Of a stretch of DNA of 35,723 nt, positions 12,514 through 32,619 are shown piece after piece. This DNA comes from a virus: positions 1-35,723 of the IMG/VR virus record IMGVR_UViG_3300028027_000131. One strand, given 5' to 3'. Numbering within the stretch: position 1 is the first letter of the stretch; each line of letters starts with the position of its first letter. A program made the position numbers and the translations under genes. The notes below the pieces were generated by a model. It saw only the letters and a program-made list of their open reading frames with translations. It had not been told where the DNA came from and made no database searches.

Positions 12514-14646
12514 TTATTGTACCTGTTCTGCTTTACGTTTACGCTGATAACCCAGTCTCCTGGTAACGGAATCTGCATACCTAGTTAAAAACTCACCTTC
12601 GCTTACAGGGATGACCTGCTCTGGATTAATTGGGTTTATCGTTATAATACTTGTAACAAATTCATTGGTTTCAGGATTATAAGCTTTATATGCTGAATAA
12701 GGTATTCCATCAACAACAACCTGTGGTTTAAACGTCTCGGTATTCTCAAAAGTAAGATCTCGTAGACTGCCTAAAAAATCAGATACTTTTTTCTGAGTAT
12801 CAACAGCCTCCTTAGGTAGTATTTTAGAATTAGTAGCATCTATTTTGTAATTGTTGTCTTTAGGTTCATTGGTAGTAACCTTAAACATATTTTCACCTGG
12901 TATATATGATATATCTGATATACCAACATCTTCTGATAACACTTCTTTCAGATTAACATCATCTTGGCCACCATCATCTTCTATTTGAATTGCTGACATT
13001 TCCCCAACTGAAGATCTAACTCTTCTAAATAAATTGTCTGCTACCTCCTTATCATATATATTTACTTCACTAAAATGAGTAGCAGCTTGTTTCTTCTTAT
13101 GATTAGCGGCAGCTTGGATAGCTGTTTGGGCAATAGTAATATCATCCATATCTGGATTATTCTGTTTAAGGGTTTCCATAGCCTCTGTTATTACAGGATT
13201 CTTTTCTATATATTCCTGTAAGTTGTCCCCCTGCTCTTTGAGTCTATCCCTATTTTTATCTATACCGAATTGTAATTCAGTAGTGAGGTCAACTAGAACT
13301 GCACTTTCCCTACCTTGTCTAAATAAGTCTAATCCTTTATTATTAAACTGATATAAGCCTGTTTCAGGATCTAATGCAACATACTCATGATTTTCCCCCA
13401 GTACAGATAATAAACTAGATAATTCCTCTGGATTTTGTTCTCTATTCATAAAAGCTTGATGAACCACGTCTCTAATCTTACCAAACCTTTTATTCTTCTC
13501 GACAGGAGATAAGTTAGATAAATATTGGCCAGCGGCTCCAACAGCTTGACTAACTGCATTACTTATGTTATATGACCATTTATTTTTTAAATCCCCAAGA
13601 GAGTACTCTCCATCTTTTACTCTATTAATAGATTGTCTTGTACTGCTATTCATTGGAATAGAGGAAGTGCTTACAGATTTTTTCAAAGTACTTATTGAAG
13701 GAGTTATATCATATTTAGATAAAATATCGGTAATATTAGAAATAGTCTGTTTAGCTTTATCTATAGTATGAACTCTCTCAATATTCTCATCAGCTTGAGA
13801 TTGTATATTACCCAATTGTTGGCTTTCACTTATGTTCCCAGTATATCTTTGATATAAGGGCCTACCAGAAGCATCGGTATTTTTACCTACGTTTGCCAAA
13901 TACTCGGGATCTTGACGTTCTTCTATGGTTGATCCTTGAACTAGCTGATTGGCATAATTATCCGATATTCGTCTACGCTCGCTTTCCGGTAATTCTGGAC
14001 TTTGAGCAGATAAGCTTTCATACATCTGACTTGCTACGTCCTGTAATTCTACTGGTAAAACACCTTTATAGTTACTACGCTCTAACATCCAAGGGAATTG
14101 TGCATTTCTACGCCACTCCCCAGGAGTTTGTTTAGTGCCTAGTTTACCAAATCTTCTCTCTAATTGCTGCTCATATAAACGTTGATCTAATACTTGTGAT
14201 TGTAGTTCCTCTGGAGTAATCCACTCACCAGTTTCAGGATCTTGCAAAGGGGCAGCTGTAACGTCTTGAGTTAAAATAGCATTAGGTCCTAATTGAGCTA
14301 ATCTTTTGCGTTGTTCTTCAGCTAACCTACGACGTTCAGGTGCTAACTGAAAGAATGGATTTTGTCTAGTCTTACTAGTTAATCTAGCAATATCTTTAGC
14401 AGCAGCTCCATAATCACCTCCATACCTATCTACTACTTCTTGTACTTTAGACTGGAAATCTCCTAGTACTTTATTTTTAATAGGTATATCCGTAGGATGC
14501 GTGGGTACTTCAGCAAACATATCTTCCATAGCTACTTGTTGCTGCATAGCTAAATCATGCCTCGCTTGATCTTGTGCTAATTGTTGCTGTAACATGCCTA
14601 CATTACTAAATATAGGCTGTGGTATATATTGTATTGGTGTAGCCAT
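12514..14646 (-). CDS. Putative internal virion (cargo/ejection) protein, 710 aa
   Basis: This is a soluble, mostly helical 710-aa protein. The N-terminal 120 residues are rich in Gln, Ala and charged residues (QQQLAQDQARHDLAMQQQ), followed by an Arg/Glu-rich stretch, and predicted helical segments continue to the end. There is no signal peptide, membrane span or enzyme motif that I can see. It sits directly upstream of the giant polymerase gene (11-bp gap) and 2 bp after the 320-aa gene, in the position where crAss-like phages encode the helical cargo proteins that are packed in the capsid with the polymerase. That role is inferred from position and composition. The ATG at 14646 follows the previous stop almost directly, which supports this start. 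Confidence 0.6.
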   Translation of the reverse strand: MATPIQYIPQPIFSNVGMLQQQLAQDQARHDLAMQQQVAMEDMFAEVPTHPTDIPIKNKVLGDFQSKVQEVVDRYGGDYGAAAKDIARLTSKTRQNPFFQLAPERRRLAEEQRKRLAQLGPNAILTQDVTAAPLQDPETGEWITPEELQSQVLDQRLYEQQLERRFGKLGTKQTPGEWRRNAQFPWMLERSNYKGVLPVELQDVASQMYESLSAQSPELPESERRRISDNYANQLVQGSTIEERQDPEYLANVGKNTDASGRPLYQRYTGNISESQQLGNIQSQADENIERVHTIDKAKQTISNITDILSKYDITPSISTLKKSVSTSSIPMNSSTRQSINRVKDGEYSLGDLKNKWSYNISNAVSQAVGAAGQYLSNLSPVEKNKRFGKIRDVVHQAFMNREQNPEELSSLLSVLGENHEYVALDPETGLYQFNNKGLDLFRQGRESAVLVDLTTELQFGIDKNRDRLKEQGDNLQEYIEKNPVITEAMETLKQNNPDMDDITIAQTAIQAAANHKKKQAATHFSEVNIYDKEVADNLFRRVRSSVGEMSAIQIEDDGGQDDVNLKEVLSEDVGISDISYIPGENMFKVTTNEPKDNNYKIDATNSKILPKEAVDTQKKVSDFLGSLRDLTFENTETFKPQVVVDGIPYSAYKAYNPETNEFVTSIITINPINPEQVIPVSEGEFLTRYADSVTRRLGYQRKRKAEQVQ

Positions 14647-14648
14647 AA

Positions 14649-15611
14649 TTATCCGTTATATCTCCTTACAATTTGTTTAGGCTGAGTTATTTTCTGAAAC
14701 CAGTTCAAACTAGGATCTTGGTATTGACCTATTGAATAATCTTGACCTAAACTATTAATTAATGCATCTTGTTGTCTAATACCTGCTACGTTCATCATTG
14801 TTTGAGGTATAGCTTGTATAGCAGCACTAGTATAAGCATCTCGATTAGCTCTAGCTTGTTGTTGCGCCATAAAATTAGCTTGAGCTTCTTGGGCCTGTAG
14901 TCTAGCATTAGCTTCAGAAACTCTAGCTCTCTCAGCAGCATTCATACGTGCTTCTTGTGAGTACAAACCAGATAATGCTTCAGCAGTACCTCTGTTCATA
15001 GCGGCTTCTTGTGCAGCTGCTGTAGATAAATACTCACCCCTTGTCCTTGAGCCTCTAGCTGCATTACTTCTAGCTATTCTACCAGCTGTACTTGATTGCC
15101 TCTGTACACCAGAGCGTTCCCTAGCTAAAGATATTTCTTCTGGTGATAATCTATTTAAACTCATCTCTGGTATATCTCTCATGGCTCTATTTGCCATAAA
15201 CATATTAGCACCAGCAGTAATTGCTCCCGATGCTATACTTGGTATAATAGACGTACTGTAGTTAGATAACCCAGATGTAGGCAACATTCCTGCACTTGTA
15301 GAAGTCATATCAACCTGAGGGCTTTGAAAATAATTTACATCTGTCATCCAAGGTTCAATAGGAATCATTCCTTCGTCATAATCGGCATTTAAATAATCAG
15401 TTAAACCTCCATTAGCGTATTGTTGTTGTGATTTCTGATTACTATCATTCATTCCATTAGCCTGTCTATATTGCTCTTGTTCTTGCGCTAGAGTAGCTAA
15501 TTCCTTATCTAACTGTTCTTTTTCAATAGGATCCCAATTAGCACGTTTATATTTATTTATAATACCTTTTGCACGAGAGGCAAATGTAGGCTTATTTTTC
15601 TTACTAGCCAT
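14649..15611 (-). CDS. Putative internal virion protein, Ala/Gln/Arg-rich coiled coil
   Basis: The protein has 320 residues. The first 60 are basic, then acidic and helical, followed by a YANGG element at 65-69 and a Pro/Ser-rich linker with an IEPW motif. A Gly/Ala segment (about 125-145) might insert in a membrane. Residues 150-270 form a long Ala/Arg/Glu/Gln helix with MAQQQARANRD-like repeats. It resembles the small helical proteins that tailed phages store in the capsid and eject, and its neighbours (419-aa, 710-aa and polymerase genes) fit that. No catalytic residues are visible. The YxxGG element recurs in the 419-aa neighbour, which suggests a shared sorting or binding signal. Confidence 0.55.
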   Translation of the reverse strand: MASKKNKPTFASRAKGIINKYKRANWDPIEKEQLDKELATLAQEQEQYRQANGMNDSNQKSQQQYANGGLTDYLNADYDEGMIPIEPWMTDVNYFQSPQVDMTSTSAGMLPTSGLSNYSTSIIPSIASGAITAGANMFMANRAMRDIPEMSLNRLSPEEISLARERSGVQRQSSTAGRIARSNAARGSRTRGEYLSTAAAQEAAMNRGTAEALSGLYSQEARMNAAERARVSEANARLQAQEAQANFMAQQQARANRDAYTSAAIQAIPQTMMNVAGIRQQDALINSLGQDYSIGQYQDPSLNWFQKITQPKQIVRRYNG

Positions 15612-15632
15612 ATTAATATATCTTAAATATTA

Positions 15633-16892
15633 TTAAAATCTGTCTGAAAATATATAATCACCATATCGCACCTCCCCTGATTCTACACTACCTTTATTTC
15701 CAATAGGTATGCCTCCATAAGGAGAGGTTTCATGTGTGGAACCACCAGAGTTATATGCAGTTATATCTGGGTTGTATCTAGTTTGTTCTAAATAACCACC
15801 ATCTGCTTTAGTATAATACTCATGTCCTGCTCTATTACCCATTCCAAGATTTAACCCTGGTATATCAGCAAATCCAGCCACTTCTCTTTGAAGGTTCATT
15901 TGATTTAAATACGAATTTTTATCAGGATATACAGATTCATACTGTTCATTGTATATATCAAGAGTTTCCCTATCAGATAAAGGGGCATTGTTAAAATCAA
16001 TATCCCTGTAATTACCCATTCCCGGAGACCTCTCTACTTGTTGATATAAAGGCTCACCTCTCCTAGTCATTTGGTATACACTATTATTACCAGCCAAATA
16101 CTGTGTATTAGGCCCCTTAGTATATAACCTATTAAAAGCTTCCTGTAAATCTTCATTTGTGGTAGCATTTGATTGCCTCCTAACAGCATCTATTTGCTCA
16201 GGGGACATCTTTGCAAAATGTTGCCTATAGACAGGTCTGGTATCAAATTTAGTAGGCGCTTCTACTGTTTCTGTTGGTAACTGACCTATACCTAAACCCT
16301 GTATTGTACCACCATTAGGATATGAATTAAGCATTCCCCCTGTTTTAAAGGTAGGAGCATAGTTATAACCTTGGTTTCTATTATAGGAATTCAATCTATT
16401 TTGCGTCAAGGATTGTTTATTCATAGCAGCTTGTTGTTGCTGCATCATTTGCCGCTGTTGTTGTAACTGTTGCTTTTGAGCGATACCAGAACCAACTCCT
16501 TTTTGTACTCCCCCTAACATAGCACCCCCCATGGGACCTGCAATAGCTGTAGCACCTGCCATTCCAATGGCTGGCATAACATAATTTGAAGTAATATTAC
16601 TAACACCAGCACCTAGTTTAGTTTCATAAGCATCCTCACCTATTACATTACCAGCACCTACTAACCCCAAAGCATTATCCGCTGAATAAGTTAAATAATC
16701 ACCAGCAACATCAGCAACGCCGCCAGTAAACCCTTTTACTCCACTACGAATATCTTTACCGACTACATCACCTGCAAAATCAGCTACTTTTTTAAGCCCA
16801 GTAAATTCACCAACATCCTTTACAGCCCCTTTTAACCAGCTACCTAGGCCATACTGAGGAAGTGAACTTATATATTGTTTTCTATTACGCAT
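15633..16892 (-). CDS. Putative internal virion protein with GG elements and C-terminal THExxPxGGI/DYxFSDR motif
   Basis: The N-terminal 130 residues of this 419-aa protein are Gly/Ala/Val-rich and amphipathic to hydrophobic (clear apolar stretch about 105-130). A Gln/Met tract follows (about 139-158), then a disordered Asn/Gly/Pro-rich region with repeated GG elements (FKTGGML at 182-188, ADGGYLEQ nearer the C-terminus). The last 37 residues carry THETSPYGGIP, then SGEVRYGDYIFSDRF. I recall a similar THExxPxGGI...DYVFSDR module from internal proteins of Bacteroidota and marine phages, but cannot verify it here. Its place among cargo genes suggests a packaged, possibly membrane-active ejection protein. 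A hairpin lies just upstream at 16907-16930, between it and the preceding gene. Confidence 0.55.
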   Translation of the reverse strand: MRNRKQYISSLPQYGLGSWLKGAVKDVGEFTGLKKVADFAGDVVGKDIRSGVKGFTGGVADVAGDYLTYSADNALGLVGAGNVIGEDAYETKLGAGVSNITSNYVMPAIGMAGATAIAGPMGGAMLGGVQKGVGSGIAQKQQLQQQRQMMQQQQAAMNKQSLTQNRLNSYNRNQGYNYAPTFKTGGMLNSYPNGGTIQGLGIGQLPTETVEAPTKFDTRPVYRQHFAKMSPEQIDAVRRQSNATTNEDLQEAFNRLYTKGPNTQYLAGNNSVYQMTRRGEPLYQQVERSPGMGNYRDIDFNNAPLSDRETLDIYNEQYESVYPDKNSYLNQMNLQREVAGFADIPGLNLGMGNRAGHEYYTKADGGYLEQTRYNPDITAYNSGGSTHETSPYGGIPIGNKGSVESGEVRYGDYIFSDRF

Positions 16893-16906
16893 ATTATTTA
16901 ATAATT

Positions 16907-16930
16907 AAAGCCCCTAAATATAGAGGCTTT
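16907..16930 (-). terminator. Hairpin between structural genes, possible weak terminator
   Basis: AAAGCCCC (16907-16914) pairs with GAGGCTTT (16923-16930): eight pairs including one G-U, with an 8-base AT loop. On the minus strand it lies about 70 bases after the stop of the 80-aa gene and 15 bases before the 419-aa gene. The U-tract after it is poor (CTTTAATTATT), so termination is probably partial. The rest of the 16893-16998 gap is AT-rich DNA with a short TTGA...TCAA inverted repeat and no gene. Confidence 0.5.
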
Positions 16931-16998
16931 ATATGATTATTACAAAATAAATTTAATTCTCTATTGACTTTAAATCAATTTATAATATTAAAGTAATA

Positions 16999-17241
16999 TT
17001 AAATCTTAGCTTCTCTATAATAACTTATTACATCATGTAATTTAAAATTAAGATTATCTATATTATCAAACTCAAATGTTACCAGTAAATAACTGTCTAC
17101 AAACCTATTACCATCTTGAGTTTGAGGTACTTGAGTCCTAAAAGCTCTAGCTAAATAACTAACAGTTTTATTAGGATCATTTAATTTAGTAACCTTAGTA
17201 ATAGGATCTATATAACTATTTTGGTAAATTATCCTATCCAC
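16999..17241 (-). CDS. Small virion-associated protein; start uncertain (GTG), open frame extends upstream
   Basis: An 80-aa product results if translation starts at the GTG at 17241. The same frame is open for another 57 codons upstream, to a TAA at 17415-17413, and the extra peptide looks protein-like (GDKSYITLLINP, SFDNLDFRTETD). It contains no ATG, GTG or TTG. This stretch overlaps the end of the 412-aa structural gene by 34 bases in the -1 frame. The true product may therefore be longer, made by a rare start codon or by -1 frameshifting from the upstream gene, or a sequence error may hide a start. The C-terminus (LVTFEFDNIDNLNFKLHDVI) is mixed alpha/beta. The location after head/neck genes suggests a structural or neck role. 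No family is recognised with certainty. Confidence 0.6.
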   Translation of the reverse strand: MDRIIYQNSYIDPITKVTKLNDPNKTVSYLARAFRTQVPQTQDGNRFVDSYLLVTFEFDNIDNLNFKLHDVISYYREAKI

Positions 17242-17412
17242 AGTTTCTTTGGTAGTTGAGTCAGTTTCTGTTCTAAAATCTAAGTTATCAAAACTATTAA
17301 TTATATTACTATTAGGATTAATTAGTAATGTAATATATGATTTATCTCCTAATTTAGAATTAGGATTGTTATTTTCACTTAGAATATTATTAGTGATAGA
17401 CCTAATACAGTT
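17242..17412 (-). other. Open -1 frame without start codon joining two structural genes
   Basis: In the frame of the 80-aa gene there are 57 uninterrupted codons from 17412 to the GTG at 17241, with no ATG, GTG or TTG. It enters the 3' end of the 412-aa gene (stop at 17381-17379) in the -1 frame. The peptide reads like normal phage protein. I saw no convincing X-XXY-YYZ slippery heptamer in the 34-base overlap. Confidence 0.5.
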
Positions 17413-18617
17413 TTAAGATCAGTATGTACAGTAGAAACCGACTCATCTTCTGTAGCAATCATTACATTACCAAAGGATGATACCAGACTGTCAATACTAC
17501 GTGCATTCTTATCTACGTAAGAGAATGTTACTTGGTCATATACTTTACCAGAAGTGGCTTCAAGTACATTTTCTACAGGATAATCTGCAACTCTAAAGGG
17601 CTCTCCACGATTACCTTTCAGGAACCACTCATTTTGGGCAACTTCCCAATATGTACCAGCTCCAACAGAAGGAGCAGCCAACTCTGACAGAGTAGTGCTA
17701 CCAAACTCATCTTTAAGTTCAATAGTAAACTCAGTTACATCATAACGGATAACCCCAGCTTGGAAATCATCAGTCAACGGCAGTGCAGTCAGCTTAACAC
17801 CTGCGGCAGCACTAGCAGCAGCAGCAGAGGCAATATACTCAGCACTTGCTTCAGCAACTACTTCACTATCCCCTTGATAAGGCATATTAAGAGTAATAAT
17901 TTCATTGACAGTGTCAATAGCTGTTACTTTATAAACAGGATCAGTAGTAGCTGTTCCAAATCTTAAATAACCACCTACAGAAAGTACAGCACCAGCATTG
18001 GGAGGAGTAGTACCACCATCTGGAGAAATAGCTTGTACATATTTACTACCATTTACAACTTTAAGATTACCAGTACCAGTAACAGCTGCACCAGCATCAC
18101 TAAGCAGAATTTCTGCCTTAATAATAGGCGGATTTTCACGAGCAAAGTTCTTATTAAAGTTAACAGCTAATCCGTCTGCAATTTCAATTTGAGTAGCAGA
18201 GTCTGAACTATAGTAAGCTGCAAATTTTACAGGAATACCTCTACCAAAAGTTTTACTATTATCCCGCCAGAAAATATGAGTTACATACTCATTATTGTTA
18301 ATAGCATCAATAGAACCAGAAGTTCCATTATAACCAATAGCTCTAGACCTTTGGGTAGGAGCTGTATAAGTAACTGCACTCTTATCCTTAATATAGTCAT
18401 ACTCAATTACAGGAGTTTCAACTACAACACCTTTAGAATTTTTATAGGCTACTGTAAAGCGATCACCTGCTGAAAGAGCATCAGTTTTTGCAGTTTTAGA
18501 ACCCACGAGAAATACACCAATTTGACCTACAGCCAAATCATTTCTAGTTTCAGCAGCAGTTAAAAGATCAGTATCTTTTCCTACTAGCATATGGGTTACA
18601 TTACTTTGTGAAATCAT
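17379..18617 (-). CDS. Virion structural protein, beta-rich, 412 aa
   Basis: This protein is rich in beta-branched residues, Gly, Ala and Thr, and low in Cys. It starts MISQSNVTHMLVGKDTDLL and has alternating hydrophobic patterns typical of beta-sandwich or HK97-derived capsid or tail proteins. A low-complexity Ala stretch (ASAAAASAAAG) lies near residues 262-272. No catalytic motif is visible. The position, three genes after the major capsid gene, suggests an auxiliary capsid, decoration or neck/tail protein. I cannot choose between these from sequence alone. The ATG lies 39 bases after the previous stop in an AT-rich leader. The 3' end overlaps the open -1 frame of the next gene, so a frameshifted longer form is possible. 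Confidence 0.6.
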   Translation of the reverse strand: MISQSNVTHMLVGKDTDLLTAAETRNDLAVGQIGVFLVGSKTAKTDALSAGDRFTVAYKNSKGVVVETPVIEYDYIKDKSAVTYTAPTQRSRAIGYNGTSGSIDAINNNEYVTHIFWRDNSKTFGRGIPVKFAAYYSSDSATQIEIADGLAVNFNKNFARENPPIIKAEILLSDAGAAVTGTGNLKVVNGSKYVQAISPDGGTTPPNAGAVLSVGGYLRFGTATTDPVYKVTAIDTVNEIITLNMPYQGDSEVVAEASAEYIASAAAASAAAGVKLTALPLTDDFQAGVIRYDVTEFTIELKDEFGSTTLSELAAPSVGAGTYWEVAQNEWFLKGNRGEPFRVADYPVENVLEATSGKVYDQVTFSYVDKNARSIDSLVSSFGNVMIATEDESVSTVHTDLKTVLGLSLIIF

Positions 18618-18656: not shown

Positions 18657-19427
18657 TTAATCATTACGTTGTTGTTCATTAACACCTAGTTGGTATTTTT
18701 CTTCCTGAGTAGCTGCCTGTGCTATAATCACAGCTTCATCTACTATTTCCCTATGAAGAGTTTCGTCAAGAACACAGTGTCTTTGATTTGTAGGGTCAAA
18801 CTCATCTACTACAATCTCAGGTGGTGTAGCTAAGTATCTAACTCTGTATTTATCTACTGTAGCTGCTTCTGGGAGTATAAGCTCAGTACGTTTAGCAGAA
18901 GCAGCTGTGCTGGTTCCTTCAGCATGCTGATACCTACTAATATCCATTCTCCATATAAGATCCTTATATGGCTTTTTATAGGGATTATTTATATTAGCTA
19001 AATATTCATCATGCTTTACAGGTCTAACCCAGGCTTCTTTGGGTTCATCCACAAGCTTAACTGCTTCCTCTACTGAATATAAAAAGTCTATAGGCATATC
19101 AAAAAATACCCCTTCTGGGTGTGCTCCACCTTGTTGGGCAGACTGAGTAATAGGTTCCACACCATCAGGTAAAGCCACCCCTGTTGGGTCGGAAGAATCA
19201 TATAGTGCAGGTTTGATCAATTGCTCTAAATCACGCCTACGCTGTTCATCTGCTTCAAAACCCTTTTGATATTTATTAGCAAGAGGGTTATATCGTTTTA
19301 TAAATACCCTGAATTGGGCTTCAGTTAAAAGATAACTTATCTGTCTGTCGTCATATGCTGGAGCAGAGAACTCAAACAGACTATCAAATTTTAACTGAAA
19401 GTTGAATTTCATTTGATTCGAAGTCAT
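18657..19427 (-). CDS. Conserved crAss-like structural protein, possible head-tail connector/ring protein
   Basis: A 256-aa protein of mixed fold. The N-terminal half holds YDDRQISYLLTEAQ and a Gly-Phe-Glu-Ala-Asp/Glu-Gln-Arg-Arg-Arg-Asp-Leu-Glu-Gln-Leu segment near residues 56-71. Later come HDEYLANINNPYKKPYKDL and a C-terminal HCVLDETLHREIVDEAVIIA helix. From memory this pattern belongs to a protein conserved in crAss-like phages between the capsid gene and the tail/cargo genes. Other phages encode connector or neck-ring proteins in this slot, which is why that role is proposed. There is no membrane span or enzyme motif. It starts 19 bases after the preceding gene and is followed by a 39-bp AT-rich spacer. 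Confidence 0.55.
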   Translation of the reverse strand: MTSNQMKFNFQLKFDSLFEFSAPAYDDRQISYLLTEAQFRVFIKRYNPLANKYQKGFEADEQRRRDLEQLIKPALYDSSDPTGVALPDGVEPITQSAQQGGAHPEGVFFDMPIDFLYSVEEAVKLVDEPKEAWVRPVKHDEYLANINNPYKKPYKDLIWRMDISRYQHAEGTSTAASAKRTELILPEAATVDKYRVRYLATPPEIVVDEFDPTNQRHCVLDETLHREIVDEAVIIAQAATQEEKYQLGVNEQQRND

Positions 19428-20398: not shown

Positions 20399-21889
20399 TT
20401 AGCCGAGAACATTAGGTATAAGTTCCCCGAGCCTCATTGGGTTACGAACCATCACTCCAGCCCAGTCAGCTTTGGTAATCTCATAACCATCAACCTTACT
20501 AGCCATGATTTTGGGAGTACCTTGTCCACCTGGTGAATATGGATCACGCAATCCAGGCAAGTATCCAAACTGCTCAGGGTTGTTCTTAGAACGAACCAAC
20601 TGAATGTTAGGAGCACCTTGAGAAGAACCGAAGTCCATAATAGTCATTCTATGAGATTCTGCAAGACCTCCGTCTGGATGTGTAATCTTATTACGGACTG
20701 CATCATCATATTGAGGAATGTGCATAAACTCTAGACGGATACCATTAATATCAGCCAATTTAACGTATTGAGGACGCTGGAATGAAGCTTTACTTCCACC
20801 AGTAATTCCAGTAATACGATCATAGTCCAATGCGCTAGATGAAGCATAACGCTCGATTTCACGAGAGATAACTTTTAACCCATGCTCACCAGTACCGATT
20901 ACAAATCTACGAGAGTCTTCAGGAAGTTTACCTACTGATAAGCTCAAGCAGTAATCAACAAGGGTCTCAATATTGAACTTATTGTAGTACAATACATTTG
21001 ACGGAGAGATTTGCTCACGCAATCCCATACCTGCTTTGATTTCATAGCCAGAGTCACCGAGGTTAGCATATGTACCATCAGCTCTACGGTTAGATTGACC
21101 AAACATCAATAGTTTAGCTTTCTCACGACGGAACTGACGACGGAATTCCCAGTCAAGTTTATTCAGCCAAGTTTTAATCGGCTTATTATCTTTACCATGA
21201 ACACCAAATACTACAGGGCTATTCTCCTTTTTATTAATCATATCACCAGGAACTGTATGCTCTTTACGAATAAATGACATACGGTTGGCCATACGGAAGG
21301 GAGAAGTGAAGCTGAGATCAGAACCTTTCTTAGAAAGAGTTTGTTCTGATAGAGAATATTCTACACTCCAACGGGTTCCTGCCTCAATTTCTTCAGGTGG
21401 TAGATATAGTTCAGTGTTACCTGTTACAAGTTCAGCCTCGTATACAAAGTAAGCACCACGTTGCTCCCCATCAGTACGAAGAAGTACCTTATAGAGATCT
21501 GGGTTCTCTCCTACAATTACATGTTGCTGGAAAAACAGTTTTTCTGAGAACCACAACATAAATCGTTGACCATGTTTACCTACTTCATCAGTAGCTGCAA
21601 ATTCTGAACCACTTAGATCAGTAGCCTTTACAAGTGGAATATTCTTTTCTTCAGCACCTTGAAGCAACCATTCAAATTCTTTATCATCATCAAGATAATA
21701 AGTAGGATATTGCTCCATATATGAAATAAGGTCTTCACCAAGGTCAAGATATTCCAGTCTGGAAATAAAATCACCAATCATTTCAGGTTGCTCTCCAAAC
21801 AAAGCACCAAGATGGTTTCGGGTAGTTAGCCCCGCCCAGTCTTTAGATTCGACTCTTATGCTGGGAAAACTAGATTTACTTACACTCAT
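20399..21889 (-). CDS. Major capsid protein (HK97 fold, crAss-like)
   Basis: This is the 496-aa shell protein. Its length matches the roughly 490-500 aa of crAss-like major capsid proteins, and it directly follows the acidic scaffold gene downstream of the portal gene. Visible features are a helical N-arm (residues 1-60, RNHLGALFGEQPEMIGDF), a Gly/Glu-rich central region with RREKAKLLMFGQSNRRADGT, a helix with FVIGTGEHGLKVISREIERYA, and a C-terminal segment with MASKVDGYEITKADWAGVMV. These fit the spine-helix and A-domain pattern of HK97-fold proteins, though I assign it mainly by gene order and length. It has a short AT-rich leader, and a hairpin follows the gene. Confidence 0.87.
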   Translation of the reverse strand: MSVSKSSFPSIRVESKDWAGLTTRNHLGALFGEQPEMIGDFISRLEYLDLGEDLISYMEQYPTYYLDDDKEFEWLLQGAEEKNIPLVKATDLSGSEFAATDEVGKHGQRFMLWFSEKLFFQQHVIVGENPDLYKVLLRTDGEQRGAYFVYEAELVTGNTELYLPPEEIEAGTRWSVEYSLSEQTLSKKGSDLSFTSPFRMANRMSFIRKEHTVPGDMINKKENSPVVFGVHGKDNKPIKTWLNKLDWEFRRQFRREKAKLLMFGQSNRRADGTYANLGDSGYEIKAGMGLREQISPSNVLYYNKFNIETLVDYCLSLSVGKLPEDSRRFVIGTGEHGLKVISREIERYASSSALDYDRITGITGGSKASFQRPQYVKLADINGIRLEFMHIPQYDDAVRNKITHPDGGLAESHRMTIMDFGSSQGAPNIQLVRSKNNPEQFGYLPGLRDPYSPGGQGTPKIMASKVDGYEITKADWAGVMVRNPMRLGELIPNVLG

Positions 21890-21921: not shown

Positions 21922-23115
21922 TTATTTACCAAATTGATTCAAGAAATGGTTAATTGAATCCTTAACCTCTGGATCACCTTTAGGTCTTGAACCATTATTA
22001 CCAGCTCCACCCCTTTTATCCAATGATTTAGCAGCATTCTCTAATTCTTGGTAGGCTTTAGACTTACCTGCTTTACTAAATACATCAAAGTTTGTAAAAC
22101 CACTAGTAGCTTCAAACAAGTAATTAAGCTTTATTTCAAAATCAATAGGGTTCTCAGAGCGATATTTACCAATTTTATTTACAGGATTACCATAATCGTC
22201 ATATGCTACTGGAGTAGTAATATTCTTTTGAATCTTATCTTTAAGACCTTTATTAATCTTTACACCAGGAATAATCTCCTCAGTTTTTTCAAGAGTCTGA
22301 TTAAATTGATTAAGTTGTTCCTGTTGCTGTTGCTTAAGAGCCTCCTGTTGCTGTCTAGCTTGTTCAATAGCTTGTTGCTCCTCTTGTGATTGAAATTCTA
22401 CAAGTTCATCTAAACTACTGAGAGCCTCCTCAGACAACTCACCTAGATCAGCTGTACGCTCAATCAATTTATCAATCTTTTCTTCACTGAATCTACTAGT
22501 ACGTTTATAGTAGTCCTTTAGAATCTGTTTCTGCAACCCCTCATCTTGTACAAGGCTATCTTTATCAATTTTAGAGTATTGTGTATTCTGAGAATTAAAC
22601 TCTAGTAATTTATCAAAAGGTACTCCTGCTTCATAACCCTCAATTAACTTCTTAACTTCAGGCGGTAACGTTTGTTTGTAATAATCAATTCCATTATATA
22701 CTTCATTACGTGCAGCCTCTATTAGGCTTTCTGGAGTACCATCAAATTTCTCTAAATCTAGATTGGGGAGGATGCCTTCATCAACCAACAACTTTGCGTA
22801 TGGAGCGAGAGAAGGAGAGTCATTGTTATCATCATTATTTTCTTCAGAAGAAGTTGCATCCTCCCCATCTGGATTATTATCTTCAGACTCTTCAAAATCA
22901 TTTTCCTCGGTCTCCTGATTATCATCTAAGTTGTTATCCTCCTCAGAATTATCATCAATTTCATTATTTTGCCCCCCAAACTCATTATCCTGTTCAGTAT
23001 TATCATCTTCAGGTGGTGTTTGAGTGGTCTCTTCTTCACCTATCATATCTGAGATGTCTCCCGCCATCATAAATAGGTCTTCACTAAACAAATTATTTTT
23101 ATTCTCTTCGCTCAT
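21922..23115 (-). CDS. Head scaffolding protein
   Basis: A 397-aa acidic protein. Residues 25-105 are an almost pure Asp/Glu/Asn tract (EEDNNLDDNQETEENDFEE), followed by helical segments. Residues about 235-280 form a Gln/Glu coiled coil (QEEQQAIEQARQQQEALK), and the C-terminus contains LDKRGGAGNNGSRPKGDPE and a final short helix ending NQFGK. An acidic, helical, disordered N-terminus with a basic or amphipathic C-terminal helix that contacts capsid protein is typical of phage scaffolds. The gene lies between the portal region and the capsid gene, the standard scaffold position. It has no protease motif. An upstream TAAATTTG box (23163-23170) may be a -7 promoter element. Confidence 0.8.
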   Translation of the reverse strand: MSEENKNNLFSEDLFMMAGDISDMIGEEETTQTPPEDDNTEQDNEFGGQNNEIDDNSEEDNNLDDNQETEENDFEESEDNNPDGEDATSSEENNDDNNDSPSLAPYAKLLVDEGILPNLDLEKFDGTPESLIEAARNEVYNGIDYYKQTLPPEVKKLIEGYEAGVPFDKLLEFNSQNTQYSKIDKDSLVQDEGLQKQILKDYYKRTSRFSEEKIDKLIERTADLGELSEEALSSLDELVEFQSQEEQQAIEQARQQQEALKQQQQEQLNQFNQTLEKTEEIIPGVKINKGLKDKIQKNITTPVAYDDYGNPVNKIGKYRSENPIDFEIKLNYLFEATSGFTNFDVFSKAGKSKAYQELENAAKSLDKRGGAGNNGSRPKGDPEVKDSINHFLNQFGK

Positions 23116-23202: not shown

Positions 23203-24120
23203 TTATTTTGCTACACTAGTTAAGAGTTGTTTTCGGACGTTTTTAGGGTAGTTACTAGACCTTACCCTACTCATAGCCCCACACTCGCAACGATAGACCG
23301 TATATCGGCCTGTATTAGTATAATACGAGCCTTCTGTATGCAGGTGGTCACTGCCACAATTAGAACATACTGGTTTATCTGATTCTAGGTATAATCCTAC
23401 ATTCGGATGTGCTTTAATATATGGTCTTAACTTAAGATATACTTCCTCTAATACTACCACATCTTGATCATTATAGGTAGACATTTCATCAATAGCAGCT
23501 TGTTCTCCCTCTAAACATCTGCGCCATAGCATAAAATCTGTCTTAATCTTTTTACCTACTCCAAAATATTCACCTAACGCATCTAATTTGTTAGAAGGAA
23601 ATCTAAACACTTTAGAAGCCTCTTTCTTTGTATCAATAGATGTCGTTACAGAGTAAGGAGGTAGACCATTTAATATAGCCCTAGCATTCATCATAGGAAC
23701 ATCAAAACCATTTCCGTAGTGGGCAACAACCATATCAGCTTCATTAATAAGATCCCATAAACTTTTTACAATTCTATAATCATCAAATTTTTTAACCTCT
23801 TCTACGGTAATTTTATCTGACATTATCTCTGTACCGTATAACCATTTTGCAGACCACGTAAGCATTATAGGATCTTGTATAACTTGATCTAAACTAATAT
23901 TCTCTTTAAACCTCCTCCATGTATAAGATATAGTTGGAGATGTTTCGATGTCAAATACCAGAATCTTTGGTAAGCTTGGATTTTTAAACCCCCTAACAAT
24001 TCTCTTAGCTTCTTTAATAGTCTCTTTACTACATTTAAACCTTCTACTCATCTTCCCTGCACCACTTTGCATATATTTTGGAAACTTCCTAAACTTCTCT
24101 ACTACTTGATCTAATGTCAT
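23203..24120 (-). CDS. DnaQ-like 3'-5' exonuclease with N-terminal HTH-like helix pair and C-terminal zinc ribbon
   Basis: This 305-aa protein has an RNase H-like DEDD exonuclease core: Exo I FDIETSP (D57, E59), Exo II VVAHYGNGFDVPMMNARA (about 133-150) and Exo III YNDQDVVVLEEVY near 220. The four acidic residues would bind two metal ions and remove 3' nucleotides from DNA or RNA. Residues 22-45 look like a helix-turn-helix (CSKETIKEAKRIVRG). The C-terminus has a CSNC...CEC zinc ribbon. It sits between ferritin and scaffold genes, so it may act in DNA packaging or genome-end processing rather than in a polymerase complex; no polymerase gene is seen nearby. A terminator-like hairpin precedes it and an 87-bp AT-rich spacer follows. 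Confidence 0.85.
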   Translation of the reverse strand: MTLDQVVEKFRKFPKYMQSGAGKMSRRFKCSKETIKEAKRIVRGFKNPSLPKILVFDIETSPTISYTWRRFKENISLDQVIQDPIMLTWSAKWLYGTEIMSDKITVEEVKKFDDYRIVKSLWDLINEADMVVAHYGNGFDVPMMNARAILNGLPPYSVTTSIDTKKEASKVFRFPSNKLDALGEYFGVGKKIKTDFMLWRRCLEGEQAAIDEMSTYNDQDVVVLEEVYLKLRPYIKAHPNVGLYLESDKPVCSNCGSDHLHTEGSYYTNTGRYTVYRCECGAMSRVRSSNYPKNVRKQLLTSVAK

Positions 24121-24148
24121 ATTAACGTTTAATTTGGTTGATAAAATA

Positions 24149-24176
24149 AAACCCTGTAACTATATATAAAGGGCTT
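24149..24176 (-). terminator. Intrinsic terminator between ferritin and exonuclease genes
   Basis: On the minus strand AAGCCCT pairs with AGGGTTT (core pairing CCCT 24152-24155 with AGGG 24170-24173, flanked by A/T pairs and one bulged base) around an AT-rich loop, followed by TTTTATTTT. It lies about 45 bases after the ferritin stop codon and would limit read-through into the exonuclease gene. The stem is short, so it may be partial. Confidence 0.55.
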
Positions 24177-24218
24177 AAATCTATTTGAAAGTACTGTTGT
24201 ACTGCATAGAAGTTCATA

Positions 24219-24764
24219 CTATTCCTCCCGTTGACCCATTTCCTTATCTATCAAAAGTATAGCGGAAGCATCCTTACCTGCAATATCCAACCTATCTAAT
24301 ATGTTAGAGAAACCTGCAACTTCATCTACTTGTTCTTGTACATACCACTGCAAGAATTCAAATGTAGTATGATCTTTCTCAGCCCAAACTTTATCAAGAG
24401 ATTTTTTATAAGACTCTTCTACATAAATTTCATGATCCAAGGCTTTCTTAATAACCTCTCTAAAACTAGTAAACTTATTGTTAGCTGGTTTAACCTGAGG
24501 AGCTTTAGGTAAAGTTATCCTATCCAACATATACTGATATATTCTATCCATATGTTCCAATTCCTCTTGGTAATGCAATTTCATATAATGAGCTGCGCCT
24601 GTATAACCCTTATATTCTAACCAAGAATACATTGCTTTATATATTTGAGCTGCTTCCAGTTCCATTGCAATATGTTCATTTAATATAACCTGTGTTTTAG
24701 CAGACAGCATAGATTTTGCTCTACTGCCTAATAAAAGACCTTCAATATCGTTATTGTTTGCCAT
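24219..24764 (-). CDS. Ferritin (bacterial non-haem type) with complete ferroxidase centre
   Basis: A 181-aa four-helix-bundle protein that matches bacterial ferritin FtnA along its length, with a ~18-residue N-terminal extension. Ferroxidase residues align to E. coli FtnA: E35 (E17), E68 (E50), H71 (H53), E112 (E94), E144/Q145 (E126/Q127) and E148 (E130); Y42 (Y24) and W140 (W122) are also kept. FLQWYVQEQ and IDKE near the C-terminus are near-identical to FtnA. By family knowledge 24 subunits form a cage that oxidises Fe(II) and stores iron. The start codon overlaps the portal gene by 14 bases, so it is co-transcribed with head genes, and a terminator follows. It ends in TAG, whereas most genes here end in TAA. 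A role in iron storage during infection or as a virion component is open. Confidence 0.93.
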   Translation of the reverse strand: MANNNDIEGLLLGSRAKSMLSAKTQVILNEHIAMELEAAQIYKAMYSWLEYKGYTGAAHYMKLHYQEELEHMDRIYQYMLDRITLPKAPQVKPANNKFTSFREVIKKALDHEIYVEESYKKSLDKVWAEKDHTTFEFLQWYVQEQVDEVAGFSNILDRLDIAGKDASAILLIDKEMGQREE

Positions 24765-27129
24765 TGGTATTTGCTTTAGATTTACGACTTATTTGCTCCT
24801 GTGCTTTATTATGACGAATAGTTTCATTAAGTTTTTTACGATCAATCTCAATCTTAGCCTTAGCTTCCTCTGTATCAGCCTCGTGTTCACGCCTATCTAA
24901 GTCTAATTTCTCCTCAGCTATATCAGAATCAGACTGTTCTATATTCTGTTGATATTGTAAATCAGCCTTGTAACGCTCAGTTTCTGCATCGGTTTCAATC
25001 TCATAACGCTTAAGTTCTCTATCAGCTTCTTTTGAAGCCTGTTCAGCCTGTGCTATACGCTCTTGAGTCTGCTGCTGTAGTTGCTGCATTTGCTCCTCAC
25101 GCTCAGCACGTTCTTGTTCATCACGTTCGATTCTACGAGACATCTCTGTAATGCTGTCACTTCTAAGTACATCAACTACAATACTCATACTAGCACCGTT
25201 TTGTACAGCAGCCTGACTAAGTTGTTTAAGTACTTGTCTAATTTCCATATCCTTAGAACTATTGGTAATAAATAGATCATACTCAGTAGATGCAAAATCC
25301 TCACCATTAAACTCAATAAATTGCCTAGACATATCATCTAGTACAAAATTAAGTTTTTTACTACTATGTTTTCGCCAAGCATATTTAGCTGTATCAAGTA
25401 GGGCCAACATTACCCTCTTCTTGGTCTCATCATGTACAAAGAACCACCTTTCAGTAATATGACTAGATTGGGTTACGGCTCTTTCAATACCCCCTACAGT
25501 TTCTCTATTATCTACCTGACCTAATCTTTGATCATTAACACCAGATATATCTCCAATCATTTTTTCAATGTATTGAAGCATCATCACAATCTGCTGTATA
25601 TAACTGCCAATATTAGGATCTAATACTTTACCTGTAGTATTGAAGTTGCCAGCTAATTTACCAGTAGATGCACCTTTCTTACCCTCATTAAACGGGTCCG
25701 TAACGGCCCACCCCAGAGCTTCTGCATAGTACATCCACTTATCTATTTCCCAGTCATCTGGAACCTTCGATACATCTAGTTCATAAATGGGACCTTTATA
25801 CTTAGCAAGTACCATTTCTAATCTGTACATATATACATTGAAAAGATACTGGTAGGGTTCCATTCTAGCCATTAAGGACTTACCGTAATCTGTACCTACA
25901 TACCCCAGAAAACATTTTGATTTATTAACAAAATGACGCATTTGTACTTCTCTAGGTTGCATCTTAACATATATATCTTCACCTATTTTAGTACCTTCAT
26001 AAGCTTCATTAATCCAAATCCACTTAACATTCTCACCAGCCTCTCTGTCTGGTTTATAGCTCTCGGGTACTAAACGCTCTTGCTCATCTCCGTTCTCGTC
26101 AAAATAAGTAAGTCTACCTATTTTTCTACGACCCAGCCACCTAGCTCTTACAACTCTTACATTGCCTTCATTATCATAAGGTAATCCAAACTTATAAGAA
26201 TTCTGGTTAAATTCTGTAATATCAATAAAACCATCCCCGTCTCCGAAATTTAGATTAGAATAAATAGGTGGCAACTGGTTTCTATACCCTAGTGGGCTAT
26301 CTTGACTACTAGTTAATCTATGAGCACTTTCAATACTATCTATTTCACTAGGCTTAAGATAATCATAAAACTCATCAATGACCTTACCAACAGGCTCATA
26401 AGTAATTTCTAATACGATATCAGAATCTTCTATTCGTTCTGAATCACCTCTACGTACAGAAAATACTGATCTAGGGTCTACTCTAGTGACTGTAGGTTCT
26501 TCACCTTCCACATCTACCCTATAAATTTCTTTACCAAATACTAGGGCATTTCTTATACCCTTATTAAATTTATCTTGTAGATCCTGTTCTCTCCACAAAT
26601 ATTGAAGTACTCTGGTAGCAGTTAGCTCATGCTTATCCTTCCACTCATAGGCCGCATACTTACCAAACTTAGAAATACGTTTTTGAACCTCTTGCTCTGA
26701 AAAAGATTCTGAAGTGAGTTCTTCAATAAGCATTTCCATTAGTATATCTGATAATTCAGTTTGCTGACTAGAGTATGTATCTAAATTCTTAGCACGAGCA
26801 TTCCAATCGAATCTACGTTTAATTTCTTCACCCTGTAACAAATCTATTTTAGGTACAGATAATGGATAGTTTTTCATTGTAGCAGGAAATACAGCATTTT
26901 CTAGCTGCATTGGGTTAAATATTTCTTCAACCTCATCTGCGTCAATAATATCATTGTCCATATTATTCCACACCTCCATCTTACGATGCTCCTCTAGGTT
27001 TCTATTTAAACCTACGACCTCTGCCCCATTAATACAATCAATATACCATTGATTAGTTTTTTTAGACTCAGGTATCTTTTGTACAGGAAAATGTAGTGGG
27101 TAACTATTGTTATTGTGCATTATAATCAA
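24751..27129 (-). CDS. Portal protein
   Basis: This 792-aa protein directly follows the large terminase gene. Its size fits crAss-like portals, which form the dodecameric DNA gate of the capsid. Visible elements are an N-terminal region with YRVDVEGEEPTVTRVDPRSV (wing/stem area), a central GVNDQRLGQVDNRETVGGIERAV segment typical of phage portals (ligand-type loop with D/N-Q-R), and a long C-terminal Glu/Gln/Lys coiled coil (about 665-780) that would form the barrel or internal crown. It is assigned by gene order, length and these features. A 64-bp AT-rich spacer with TTTAATTTGAATAAAT separates it from terminase. Its 3' end overlaps the ferritin start. Confidence 0.88.
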   Translation of the reverse strand: MIIMHNNNSYPLHFPVQKIPESKKTNQWYIDCINGAEVVGLNRNLEEHRKMEVWNNMDNDIIDADEVEEIFNPMQLENAVFPATMKNYPLSVPKIDLLQGEEIKRRFDWNARAKNLDTYSSQQTELSDILMEMLIEELTSESFSEQEVQKRISKFGKYAAYEWKDKHELTATRVLQYLWREQDLQDKFNKGIRNALVFGKEIYRVDVEGEEPTVTRVDPRSVFSVRRGDSERIEDSDIVLEITYEPVGKVIDEFYDYLKPSEIDSIESAHRLTSSQDSPLGYRNQLPPIYSNLNFGDGDGFIDITEFNQNSYKFGLPYDNEGNVRVVRARWLGRRKIGRLTYFDENGDEQERLVPESYKPDREAGENVKWIWINEAYEGTKIGEDIYVKMQPREVQMRHFVNKSKCFLGYVGTDYGKSLMARMEPYQYLFNVYMYRLEMVLAKYKGPIYELDVSKVPDDWEIDKWMYYAEALGWAVTDPFNEGKKGASTGKLAGNFNTTGKVLDPNIGSYIQQIVMMLQYIEKMIGDISGVNDQRLGQVDNRETVGGIERAVTQSSHITERWFFVHDETKKRVMLALLDTAKYAWRKHSSKKLNFVLDDMSRQFIEFNGEDFASTEYDLFITNSSKDMEIRQVLKQLSQAAVQNGASMSIVVDVLRSDSITEMSRRIERDEQERAEREEQMQQLQQQTQERIAQAEQASKEADRELKRYEIETDAETERYKADLQYQQNIEQSDSDIAEEKLDLDRREHEADTEEAKAKIEIDRKKLNETIRHNKAQEQISRKSKANTNGKQ

Positions 27130-27193: not shown

Positions 27194-29434
27194 TTATCGA
27201 AACTTAAGCCTAGAGGTGATGTTATTACCTTTATAAGCTCTGTTCCAAAAACTATCTTGAGTTTTATTCTTAATACTCTGAGCCTTACTGGATTCGGTAA
27301 CTTTCCTACGATCTTCTCTAAGTATCATTAACATTATAAAAGCACTTACACGGTCAGTATTAATTTCTTTAGAGTAGCTTATTAACTCCCTAATAAACGC
27401 AGGTGATTTTATTAATTCTAAATTACGAGTACCTTCCGGCTTATCATATGCCTGCTCTTCTAAATAACTAAGAGTCAAACTAAGCCCCCAATTAATAATT
27501 CTTTCATTAGTAGAAGTACCTACAGATTTATTACCACCCCCAGATACTTTCACAAGAGATTGATCTCTAAGTATTTCAGGAGTCTCACATAATAACTGTA
27601 ATGAGTTTTTATTCTTAAAGTAAGCATAAGGACCTTTTATATTATTTTCATAGTTACAAATAGCGTTAAAGAACATTAGTAACCTCCTAGCTTGCTCATA
27701 GTACTCTTCTGCTACATAAGTACGTGCTGTATATTCAGCAACAATCCTGTCTGTCCAAGAATCTAGTACAAATATTGACTGTAAGGATTGTTGAACATCT
27801 TCATTACCGTCTAACATAATAGGGTCCCACCCTGCTAAATATCTACCAAAAGGTATGTTTCCATCAGAATCTCTTTTAGGTAACTCATATAATTCTATAC
27901 AAGCTTCCATGCTTAAGCCTCGCTTTAACGGAAATTCCCTAATTACTTGCTTGTCAGATATTCTAGGAACAATTTTACCATCCTTAATATCCATTTCATA
28001 ACGATAAGTAGCATTAAGAATAGAATCTTTAGCTTCTAGTTCAGCAAGTATATTATTAAGATCTTGCGTAGGAAAGAAATTACCTTCCATTGTCATAAAA
28101 ACTTCAGAAGGTCTAATTGGTTGGTTGATTATTTCAGTAAGTAGCTTAACTTTATTATTAGATTTCTTAGCCCTTTCCCTAGCTTTTTCTATGGTAGCAA
28201 GAGCTTTCTCCTCATTAGAAATAAGGTTAGGCCCTTCTTTAAAATCATTTTGACCCTTAAAGGATGGTACAAAATATCCTATCTTACCTTTACCTTCCCA
28301 AGTGTCTTCAAACACTAAACAGTCATATGCCTCGGGATTATAAAATACATCTTTAAGCCATAGTGCTGTACCTGTAGTAGTATACCCCCCAGTGCCGAGC
28401 ATATATATAGGAAGGTATTTATTAGATTGTTTATTAGGCTGAGTAGCCTCTACTGCACCAAGTACCTCATGTATTGAACTTAAAAAACCAACCTCTTCGA
28501 GAAATGCACGGGTTGGTCTTGTTCCGTTGGCGGCCAGTGGGTTATCTTGGAATGTTCTGTGTACAATACTGCTACCAGATAATGTGTCGTGTATTGGATT
28601 CTTAGCGCCTGGCTCCCAACTGCCACCTAGTTCCGGTAGTAACGGTGAGGGAAATGTTTTATCCTCACCATTAATTCTAATAGTGACTTCTCCTGGTAGA
28701 TTATTAAATGAAAACTTTACTTTACTTAATAAATCAGCACTATACTTAGCTTCGATGGCCCCTACCAATGTCTGAGATATTGATACGAATTTCTTATCTT
28801 TACGACCTTGTAAATAAGCATCATAGTTTCTAGCCCCATCGGTTAATAGGGAATGTTGTATACAACTAGCAGTAAAGTACGATTTTCCATAACCCCTACC
28901 TCCCATTTCTAGAACGTTAAGAGCTTGATTAAGATATATATGTGGACCAAACTTTTCTGACATATCTGTACGCCAAAAATAAGTTCTAGCTGGCCAATAT
29001 TCTTTTAAAGTACCATCTTTTTTAAATAAGGACTTGTAATTATCTTCTAGTATATTACCCTTATGATCTACACAAAACTCAGTGTAGATTTCTTCCTTGG
29101 TCATATTCTGCACCTCCCTAAGGCATGTATACTTAGGATCATCTCTAAATCCACTAAAACCACATGCTTCTGAATATATAAAAGCCTTCTCCCACTCTAT
29201 ATCACGAAACCATGGTTGACCTATACCTTGGACTTTCCTACCCCCACCAAGGAACTGTATAGTACTTATATTTACATGATAGTATAATTCTGGAGGACAC
29301 CATCTATTACCAACCCACATACCCTCAAATATCTTACGCTTAACATCTTTAAAGAAATTAATACGCTCGAATTTCTGAGATATTGGATGAAATATAGGAA
29401 CCTCTTTTATTAGAAAGTTATCGTTATTTACCAT
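27194..29434 (-). CDS. terL: Terminase large subunit (ATPase-nuclease)
   Basis: This 746-aa protein is the motor that pumps DNA into the capsid and cuts it. The Walker A motif GGRGYGKS is at residues 178-185, the Walker B-like AFLEEVGFL near 311-319, and AGWDPIMLDG near 535 fits the first acidic motif of the RNase H-like nuclease; VLDSW follows on the next strand. The N-terminal 170 residues form the extension seen in crAss-like terminases (YYHVNISTIQFLGGG). It starts three bases after the preceding gene's stop (ATG at 29434, stop at 29438), and the portal gene follows, a standard packaging cluster. Confidence 0.93.
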   Translation of the reverse strand: MVNNDNFLIKEVPIFHPISQKFERINFFKDVKRKIFEGMWVGNRWCPPELYYHVNISTIQFLGGGRKVQGIGQPWFRDIEWEKAFIYSEACGFSGFRDDPKYTCLREVQNMTKEEIYTEFCVDHKGNILEDNYKSLFKKDGTLKEYWPARTYFWRTDMSEKFGPHIYLNQALNVLEMGGRGYGKSYFTASCIQHSLLTDGARNYDAYLQGRKDKKFVSISQTLVGAIEAKYSADLLSKVKFSFNNLPGEVTIRINGEDKTFPSPLLPELGGSWEPGAKNPIHDTLSGSSIVHRTFQDNPLAANGTRPTRAFLEEVGFLSSIHEVLGAVEATQPNKQSNKYLPIYMLGTGGYTTTGTALWLKDVFYNPEAYDCLVFEDTWEGKGKIGYFVPSFKGQNDFKEGPNLISNEEKALATIEKARERAKKSNNKVKLLTEIINQPIRPSEVFMTMEGNFFPTQDLNNILAELEAKDSILNATYRYEMDIKDGKIVPRISDKQVIREFPLKRGLSMEACIELYELPKRDSDGNIPFGRYLAGWDPIMLDGNEDVQQSLQSIFVLDSWTDRIVAEYTARTYVAEEYYEQARRLLMFFNAICNYENNIKGPYAYFKNKNSLQLLCETPEILRDQSLVKVSGGGNKSVGTSTNERIINWGLSLTLSYLEEQAYDKPEGTRNLELIKSPAFIRELISYSKEINTDRVSAFIMLMILREDRRKVTESSKAQSIKNKTQDSFWNRAYKGNNITSRLKFR

Positions 29435-32523: not shown

Positions 32524-32547
32524 ACACTTAATTTAAGTTAATAATTG

Positions 32548-32619
32548 AGGCTGATACAGGAGTCGAACCTGTGTTGCTGGAGTACAAAACCAGAGTGATA
32601 ACCACTACACTAATCAGCC
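32548..32619 (-). tRNA. tRNA-Thr (anticodon UGU)
   Basis: The minus strand folds as a full cloverleaf. Acceptor GGCTGAT (32613-32619) pairs with ATCAGCC (32549-32555) without mismatch. The D-arm is GTG...CAC with a GG loop. The anticodon stem is CTGG/CCAG with loop TTTGTAC, giving TGT. The T-arm is ACAGG-TTCGACT-CCTGT with the standard TTCGA. The discriminator is U and CCA is not encoded. The T-T pair at the base of the anticodon loop makes the decoding call slightly less certain. It probably supplements the host for AC(A/G) codons. Confidence 0.88.

Follow-up and report, generated by a model that had tools for sequence, protein, structure and literature searches.

The analysed window, a single 35.7-kb viral metagenomic contig of 35,723 nucleotides, carries a ferritin gene directly behind the portal gene in the head module of a crAss-like phage. 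To judge from sequence comparison and a structural model, its product is a genuine FtnA-type maxi-ferritin. The best explanation of the gene, to which we assign a probability of roughly 0.6, is a late-made ferroxidase that would remove Fe(II) and peroxide during the copying and packaging of progeny DNA.

The ferritin ORF matches the Pfam Ferritin profile (PF00210) with an E-value of 2.1e-31 and a score of 109 bits, where 24.5 is the cut-off. The nearest profiles and structures are those of non-heme ferritins, and the closest sequence relatives in the PDB are the ferritin of V. cholerae (3qz3, E 2.5e-30) and E. coli FtnA (E ~1e-28). The predicted structure has a pLDDT of 90.7 and matches the ferritins of T. 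maritima, V. cholerae and E. coli with Z-scores of 24.8–25.7, with an rmsd of 1.1–1.3 over 161–164 residues for the T. maritima and E. coli proteins. Superposition on FtnA, proposed as a check in the initial annotation, yielded the four-helix bundle with its short C-terminal helix (1eum; Z 24.8, rmsd 1.2, 161 residues). In the alignment with E. coli FtnA, residue numbers differ by 18 throughout, which pairs E35 with E17, E68 with E50, H71 with H53, E112 with E94, E144 with E126, Q145 with Q127 and E148 with E130, as well as Y42 with Y24 and W140 with W122; all of the ligands and both aromatic residues named initially were thereby confirmed. These include the complete A/B diiron set (E35, E68, H71, E112, Q145 and E148, together with Y42), and the protein is probably complete and catalytically active.

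An end-to-end alignment with FtnA had also been claimed; it holds for the core and fails for the 18 N-terminal residues, which have no FtnA counterpart. Residues 4–12 of this extension are predicted, with low confidence, to form a short helix, followed by R/K residues. Extensions of about 16–20 residues are also present in portal-adjacent relatives (L003, L012, L013, L015, L018–L020, L041 and L049). Against the NCBIfam FtnA equivalog PRK10304 the protein scored 111 bits, below the cut-off of 178, which places it in the same family as FtnA and not as an FtnA orthologue. A Dps mini-ferritin identity was ruled out by the FtnA-type intra-subunit ligands and the C-terminal helix (residues 166–176).

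Table 1. Features of the ferritin locus and the surrounding head module in the window.
Feature	Position	Strand	Remarks
Ferritin gene, 181 aa	24219..24764	-	predicted FtnA-type fold; all A/B-site ferroxidase ligands; ATG start, TAG stop
N-terminal extension, codons 1-18	24711..24764	-	absent from FtnA
Portal 3' end / ferritin 5' end overlap, 14 nt	24751..24764	-	
Portal protein gene	24751..27129	-	phrog_6547, P22-like portal
Terminase large subunit, upstream of portal	27194..29434	-	phrog_6681
Weak hairpin and U-rich stretch downstream of ferritin	24145..24178	-	candidate terminator
Exonuclease gene, next downstream of ferritin	23203..24120	-	phrog_403 DNA polymerase exonuclease subunit
397-aa protein between exonuclease and MCP	21922..23115	-	scaffold-like by position only; no family match
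crAss-type major capsid protein (MCP)	20399..21889	-	PF23898, E 7e-113
crAss tail ring protein 3/4	18657..19427	-	PF25710
Auxiliary capsid protein	17379..18617	-	PF25650

The window phage is crAss-like (Crassvirales-type), with MCP, portal, large terminase subunit (TerL), ring and auxiliary capsid proteins all present (Table 1). The portal, exonuclease and crAss capsid assignments made earlier hold with Pfam and PHROG profiles. The placement of ferritin in the head cluster likewise stands: the gene is co-oriented with the portal gene and the reported 14-base overlap is exact, with the same overlap in the related contigs L001 and L003. The claim that ferritin has its own terminator fared poorly. 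A consensus terminator scan listed none downstream of ferritin; the candidate hairpin with its U-rich stretch folds at -16.1 kcal/mol (z -2.0), a value equalled by 10 of 200 shuffles, and relatives have only about 0–100 nt at its place. Elsewhere in the window, the two halves of a crAss cargo protein 1 domain (PF25725) lie on adjoining ORFs (14649–15611 and 15633–16892), and this gene may be split. A tRNA-Thr (anticodon TGT) is located at 32547–32619.

The arrangement of the window is repeated in three contigs of other metagenomes (L001, L002 and L003), and the gene order is kept in many more. The portal–ferritin junction of L001 (96% identity) and L003 (80%) is identical in arrangement to that of the window. 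These contigs bear on whether the ferritin locus is an assembly chimera or bacterial contamination, for which the window record, itself one metagenomic contig, leaves room, as do some unannotated 'phage' records with ferritin that resemble bacterial DNA. The initial annotation had named chimeric borders as the point on which its reading would fall; the recurrence of these borders in independent contigs refutes both chimera and contamination, to which we give practically no weight. Downstream of ferritin, L003 differs in having a 494-aa fibre-like ORF followed by a metallophosphatase-type protein. The conserved unit is therefore portal–ferritin, not ferritin–exonuclease.

Several other differences among these relatives were observed. 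At the exonuclease position of L003 (4095–5664), the metallophosphatase-type ORF retains the initial portion of the exonuclease, and the next ORF has an exonuclease-like end. Compared with the window protein (27194–29434), TerL of the near-identical phage L001 (L001:4260–7571) is longer by about 358 residues, located behind TerL residue 181 and close to the GGRGYGKS P-loop; they likely represent an intein. The head genes of L010 are 98–100% identical to those of the window at the protein level, and the cargo/tail ORFs beside the auxiliary capsid gene (window 12514–17241; L010:14639–18590) are without similarity.

A first profile scan identified 39 viral ferritin loci. A second, seeded with related phage ferritins, gave 92 loci, 80 of which were kept, and a few loci are common to both sets. 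Within the second set, 32 of the 80 ferritins are at most two genes after the portal gene, 30 show the same spacing behind a gene for a ring protein (phrog_15924), in many cases with a tail-fibre-like gene following, and four adjoin an MCP or head protease of a different type. A position test found 50 of the 54 testable loci so placed, compared with a mean of 8 for random ORFs under a null that ignores shared ancestry. A ferritin-blind sample was obtained from a scan seeded with the MCP of a related crAss-like clade; 58 contigs showed both portal and scaffold/MCP, and ferritin was present between them in 31. The initial doubt that ferritin is a standard crAss-like gene is borne out by the annotated phage collection, whose crAss-like records contain no ferritin, and not by the environmental contigs, where the gene is common. 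Ferritin matches in the 'phages' collection were discounted as probable bacterial DNA, since these records are unannotated and the four placed in a tree grouped with cellular ferritins. No ferritin-superfamily gene was found in the slot of the crAss-like relatives L021, L022, L024, L030, L034 and L035; ferritin is therefore dispensable in some settings.

All 27 phage ferritins in the first set and all 80 in the second keep the A/B ligands unchanged. This holds down to proteins 24% identical to that of the window, with variation at other positions. Iron oxidation is therefore apparently what selection retains, and the C site, conserved only in part (E67 and D147 vary), and Trp140, substituted in all but one of the 80 second-set proteins, appear relaxed. 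At the Trp140 position, these 80 phage ferritins (L048, L060 and L199–L276) have lysine in 53 cases and tryptophan in one; the position is invariant in the sampled cellular ferritins. Ferritin domains are also fused into longer phage proteins of 593 and 299 aa (L058:9563–11344, L059 and L057:9542–10441), and in L058 the fusion gene precedes that for a head maturation protease by a few genes. In L063 (9486–9995; the record is also L037), a gene for a ClpP-like protease lies between portal and ferritin.

Of the 27 contigs without ferritin in the ferritin-blind sample, 14 encode DUF5856 (PF19174, E 1e-16 to 1e-20) between portal and scaffold/MCP. Overall, the slot contains ferritin only in 26 contigs, DUF5856 only in 14, both side by side in five and neither in 13 (Fisher test for mutual avoidance, p 0.005, ignoring shared ancestry). 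The family is of unknown function in Pfam, and its PHROG label (phrog_858) is starvation-inducible; it is also annotated as a transcriptional regulator (examples are L322:5034–5423 and L317:6361–6747). A comparison of the DUF5856 profile with the PDB retrieved only Dps-family chains, with a weak best E-value of 0.03, and the predicted fold is closest to Dps proteins (Z ~12, modest by itself for helical bundles). In an ungapped alignment, the invariant H31, H43, D58 and E62 fall on H25, H37, D52 and E56 of HP-NAP, the established Dps ferroxidase ligands, and the Dps-type spacing H-x11-H-x14-D-x3-E is thus reproduced on a Dps-like bundle. DUF5856 is likely a Dps-type mini-ferritin. Like the window ferritin, it occupies the crAss-like slot and has a ferritin-superfamily fold by prediction, with its ligands Dps-spaced; in contrast, it is a mini-ferritin of about 130 aa, similar at the superfamily level only. 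No literature on DUF5856 was found in open-access papers. Two different ferroxidase proteins in one slot point to iron/peroxide chemistry, rather than any particular cage, as the selected function.

Ferritin lies directly behind portal in relatives at 61, 45, 40 and 39% identity and is retained there down to about 37%. In the window clade, the ferritin branching order (L012,(L013,(L003,(window,L001)))) is that of portal, and the distance matrices of the two proteins are correlated (Mantel rho 0.60, 0 of 2000 permutations). The ferritin gene has a GC content of 0.341 and a GC3 of 0.269, like its neighbours, and dN/dS between the window and L001 ferritins is 0.06. The TAG stop, initially read as a sign of recent acquisition, is shared with L001 and L012 (other relatives have TAA or TGA), terminates 3 of the 29 window genes counted and is uninformative about acquisition.

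A profile scan of genome contigs with the close phage-ferritin alignment found no cellular relative; cellular ferritins were obtained with a second such scan using FtnA-like sequences. Two ferritin trees, both with long branches and with cellular rows picked by similarity, supplied the comparison with host-type ferritins recommended in the initial annotation, and both separate crAss-like phage ferritins from the sampled cellular ones. In the first, 26 phage rows stand apart from Bacteroidota, proteobacterial and planctomycete ferritins (support 96/99), with the long-branch L051 and some other viral rows outside this group; in the second, which leaves out L051, one split divides all 48 phage rows from cells (94/90). 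The phage ferritins L061, L067 and L069 form a separate long branch, and in L061 head genes give way to a DNA polymerase (phrog_262) as the next large ORF. On the portal tree, the presence of ferritin is patchy, with at least five changes, and losses or transfers therefore occur. This patchiness, together with a protein that evolves faster than portal and MCP, would suit a recently captured host gene carried as a passenger without a selected role. The invariant ligands, low dN/dS and phage-like base composition argue against such a passenger, as do the portal-like topology and the separation from sampled cellular ferritins; it is already largely refuted and we regard it as very improbable. By these sequence comparisons, the window ferritin belongs to an old phage lineage rather than being a recent host acquisition.

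Retention of the A/B site, exchange with a Dps-type protein and location in the late block make a late-made ferroxidase the best reading. The ferritin would be synthesised alongside the portal and capsid proteins, and its cage would assemble in the infected cell. The diiron centre would oxidise Fe(II), with storage of the ferric product, and free iron along with O2 or peroxide would be removed while progeny DNA is copied and packaged, so that phage DNA and the proteins under assembly may suffer less Fenton damage. The computations establish the identity of the gene, its ligands, position and conservation, its age relative to hosts and its Dps-type stand-in. The 13 of 58 contigs with neither ferritin nor DUF5856 in the slot count against this explanation, as do the partial conservation of the C site and the substitution of the Trp140 equivalent. 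A gene lying among head genes could encode a structural protein as readily as a soluble one; the portal–MCP interval of crAss001 also contains lysis and hydrolase genes, and co-location alone therefore leaves the function unfixed.

The main rival, possible although we doubt it, is that the ferritin is a virion component, with the cage attached to the capsid or to the portal vertex, or enclosed in the particle, via the N-terminal extension, from where it would protect or act in the mature particle. Its position immediately after portal has a precedent in crAss001, where the gene directly downstream of portal encodes gp21, a head-fibre trimer anchored to the capsid by residues 1–38 (PMC10172136). 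Gp21 shares the slot of the window ferritin, but is a fibre on the virion surface without homology to it, and no gp21 or gp29 homolog was found in the window. The extensions of the window ferritin and its portal-adjacent relatives could serve as anchors; however, they vary in sequence between sub-clades, short extensions also occur in some Bacteroidota ferritins, and a general capsid tether is weakened because most other phage ferritins, including the portal-adjacent L051 and L052, have none. In other phages ferritin has a head maturation protease and an MCP as neighbours (L054), and some of the BFVD matches whose folds are ferritin/Dps-like bear the name prohead protease. Replacement by a smaller Dps-type protein speaks against a virion part. 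The combined proposal, a conserved iron-oxidising slot filled interchangeably by maxi-ferritin or Dps-type protein with the ferritin itself a virion-borne cage removing iron and peroxide, seems to us similarly doubtful. Less probable still is a role in storing up iron for phage enzymes or in depriving the host of it. The intact ferroxidase site would allow this, and a giant-virus ferritin has been proposed as an iron regulator (PMC7136201), but neither the diiron ribonucleotide reductase small subunit (PF00268) nor the anaerobic enzyme (PF13597) was found in ten ferritin-bearing records, which are perhaps fragments, and replacement by a Dps-type protein suits detoxification better.

Bacterial FtnA proteins of E. 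coli and V. cholerae (PF00210) share with the window ferritin the fold, core length, A/B ligands and equivalents of Tyr24 and Trp122; the window protein differs in its identity of only about 33–35%, 18-aa extension, phage head-module setting and separate tree branch. Encapsulins with ferritin-like cargo link an iron ferroxidase to the HK97-fold shell family. The likeness to the window is an analogy only; the phage has a complete set of capsid genes, and its ferritin is of the canonical FtnA type. Among viruses, ferritin occurs in giant viruses (PMC7136201), a Dps-like protein in Lactobacillus phages (PMC6669764) and individual phage ferritins in BFVD. Dps and Mn-catalase of Gratiaviridae and other gut phages, proposed to aid tolerance of oxidative damage, are likewise ferritin-superfamily enzymes of gut Bacteroidetes phages (Benler 2021, PMC8008677); these phages are different ones, their proteins are not maxi-ferritins, and a fixed post-portal slot is not known for them. 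The open-access full texts searched contained no report of ferritin in Crassvirales or crAss-like phages, including as a recurrent head-module gene.

Ferritin is generally regarded as part of the housekeeping of cells. In a large group of environmental crAss-like phages it recurs in the virion block with its catalytic residues conserved and is exchangeable with a likely Dps-type protein, which suggests that iron handling is a long-standing part of particle production in these phages. If this is correct, DUF5856/phrog_858, today of unknown function or misleadingly annotated, would gain a likely function, and control of iron and peroxide in phage assembly would become a general, testable part of phage biology.
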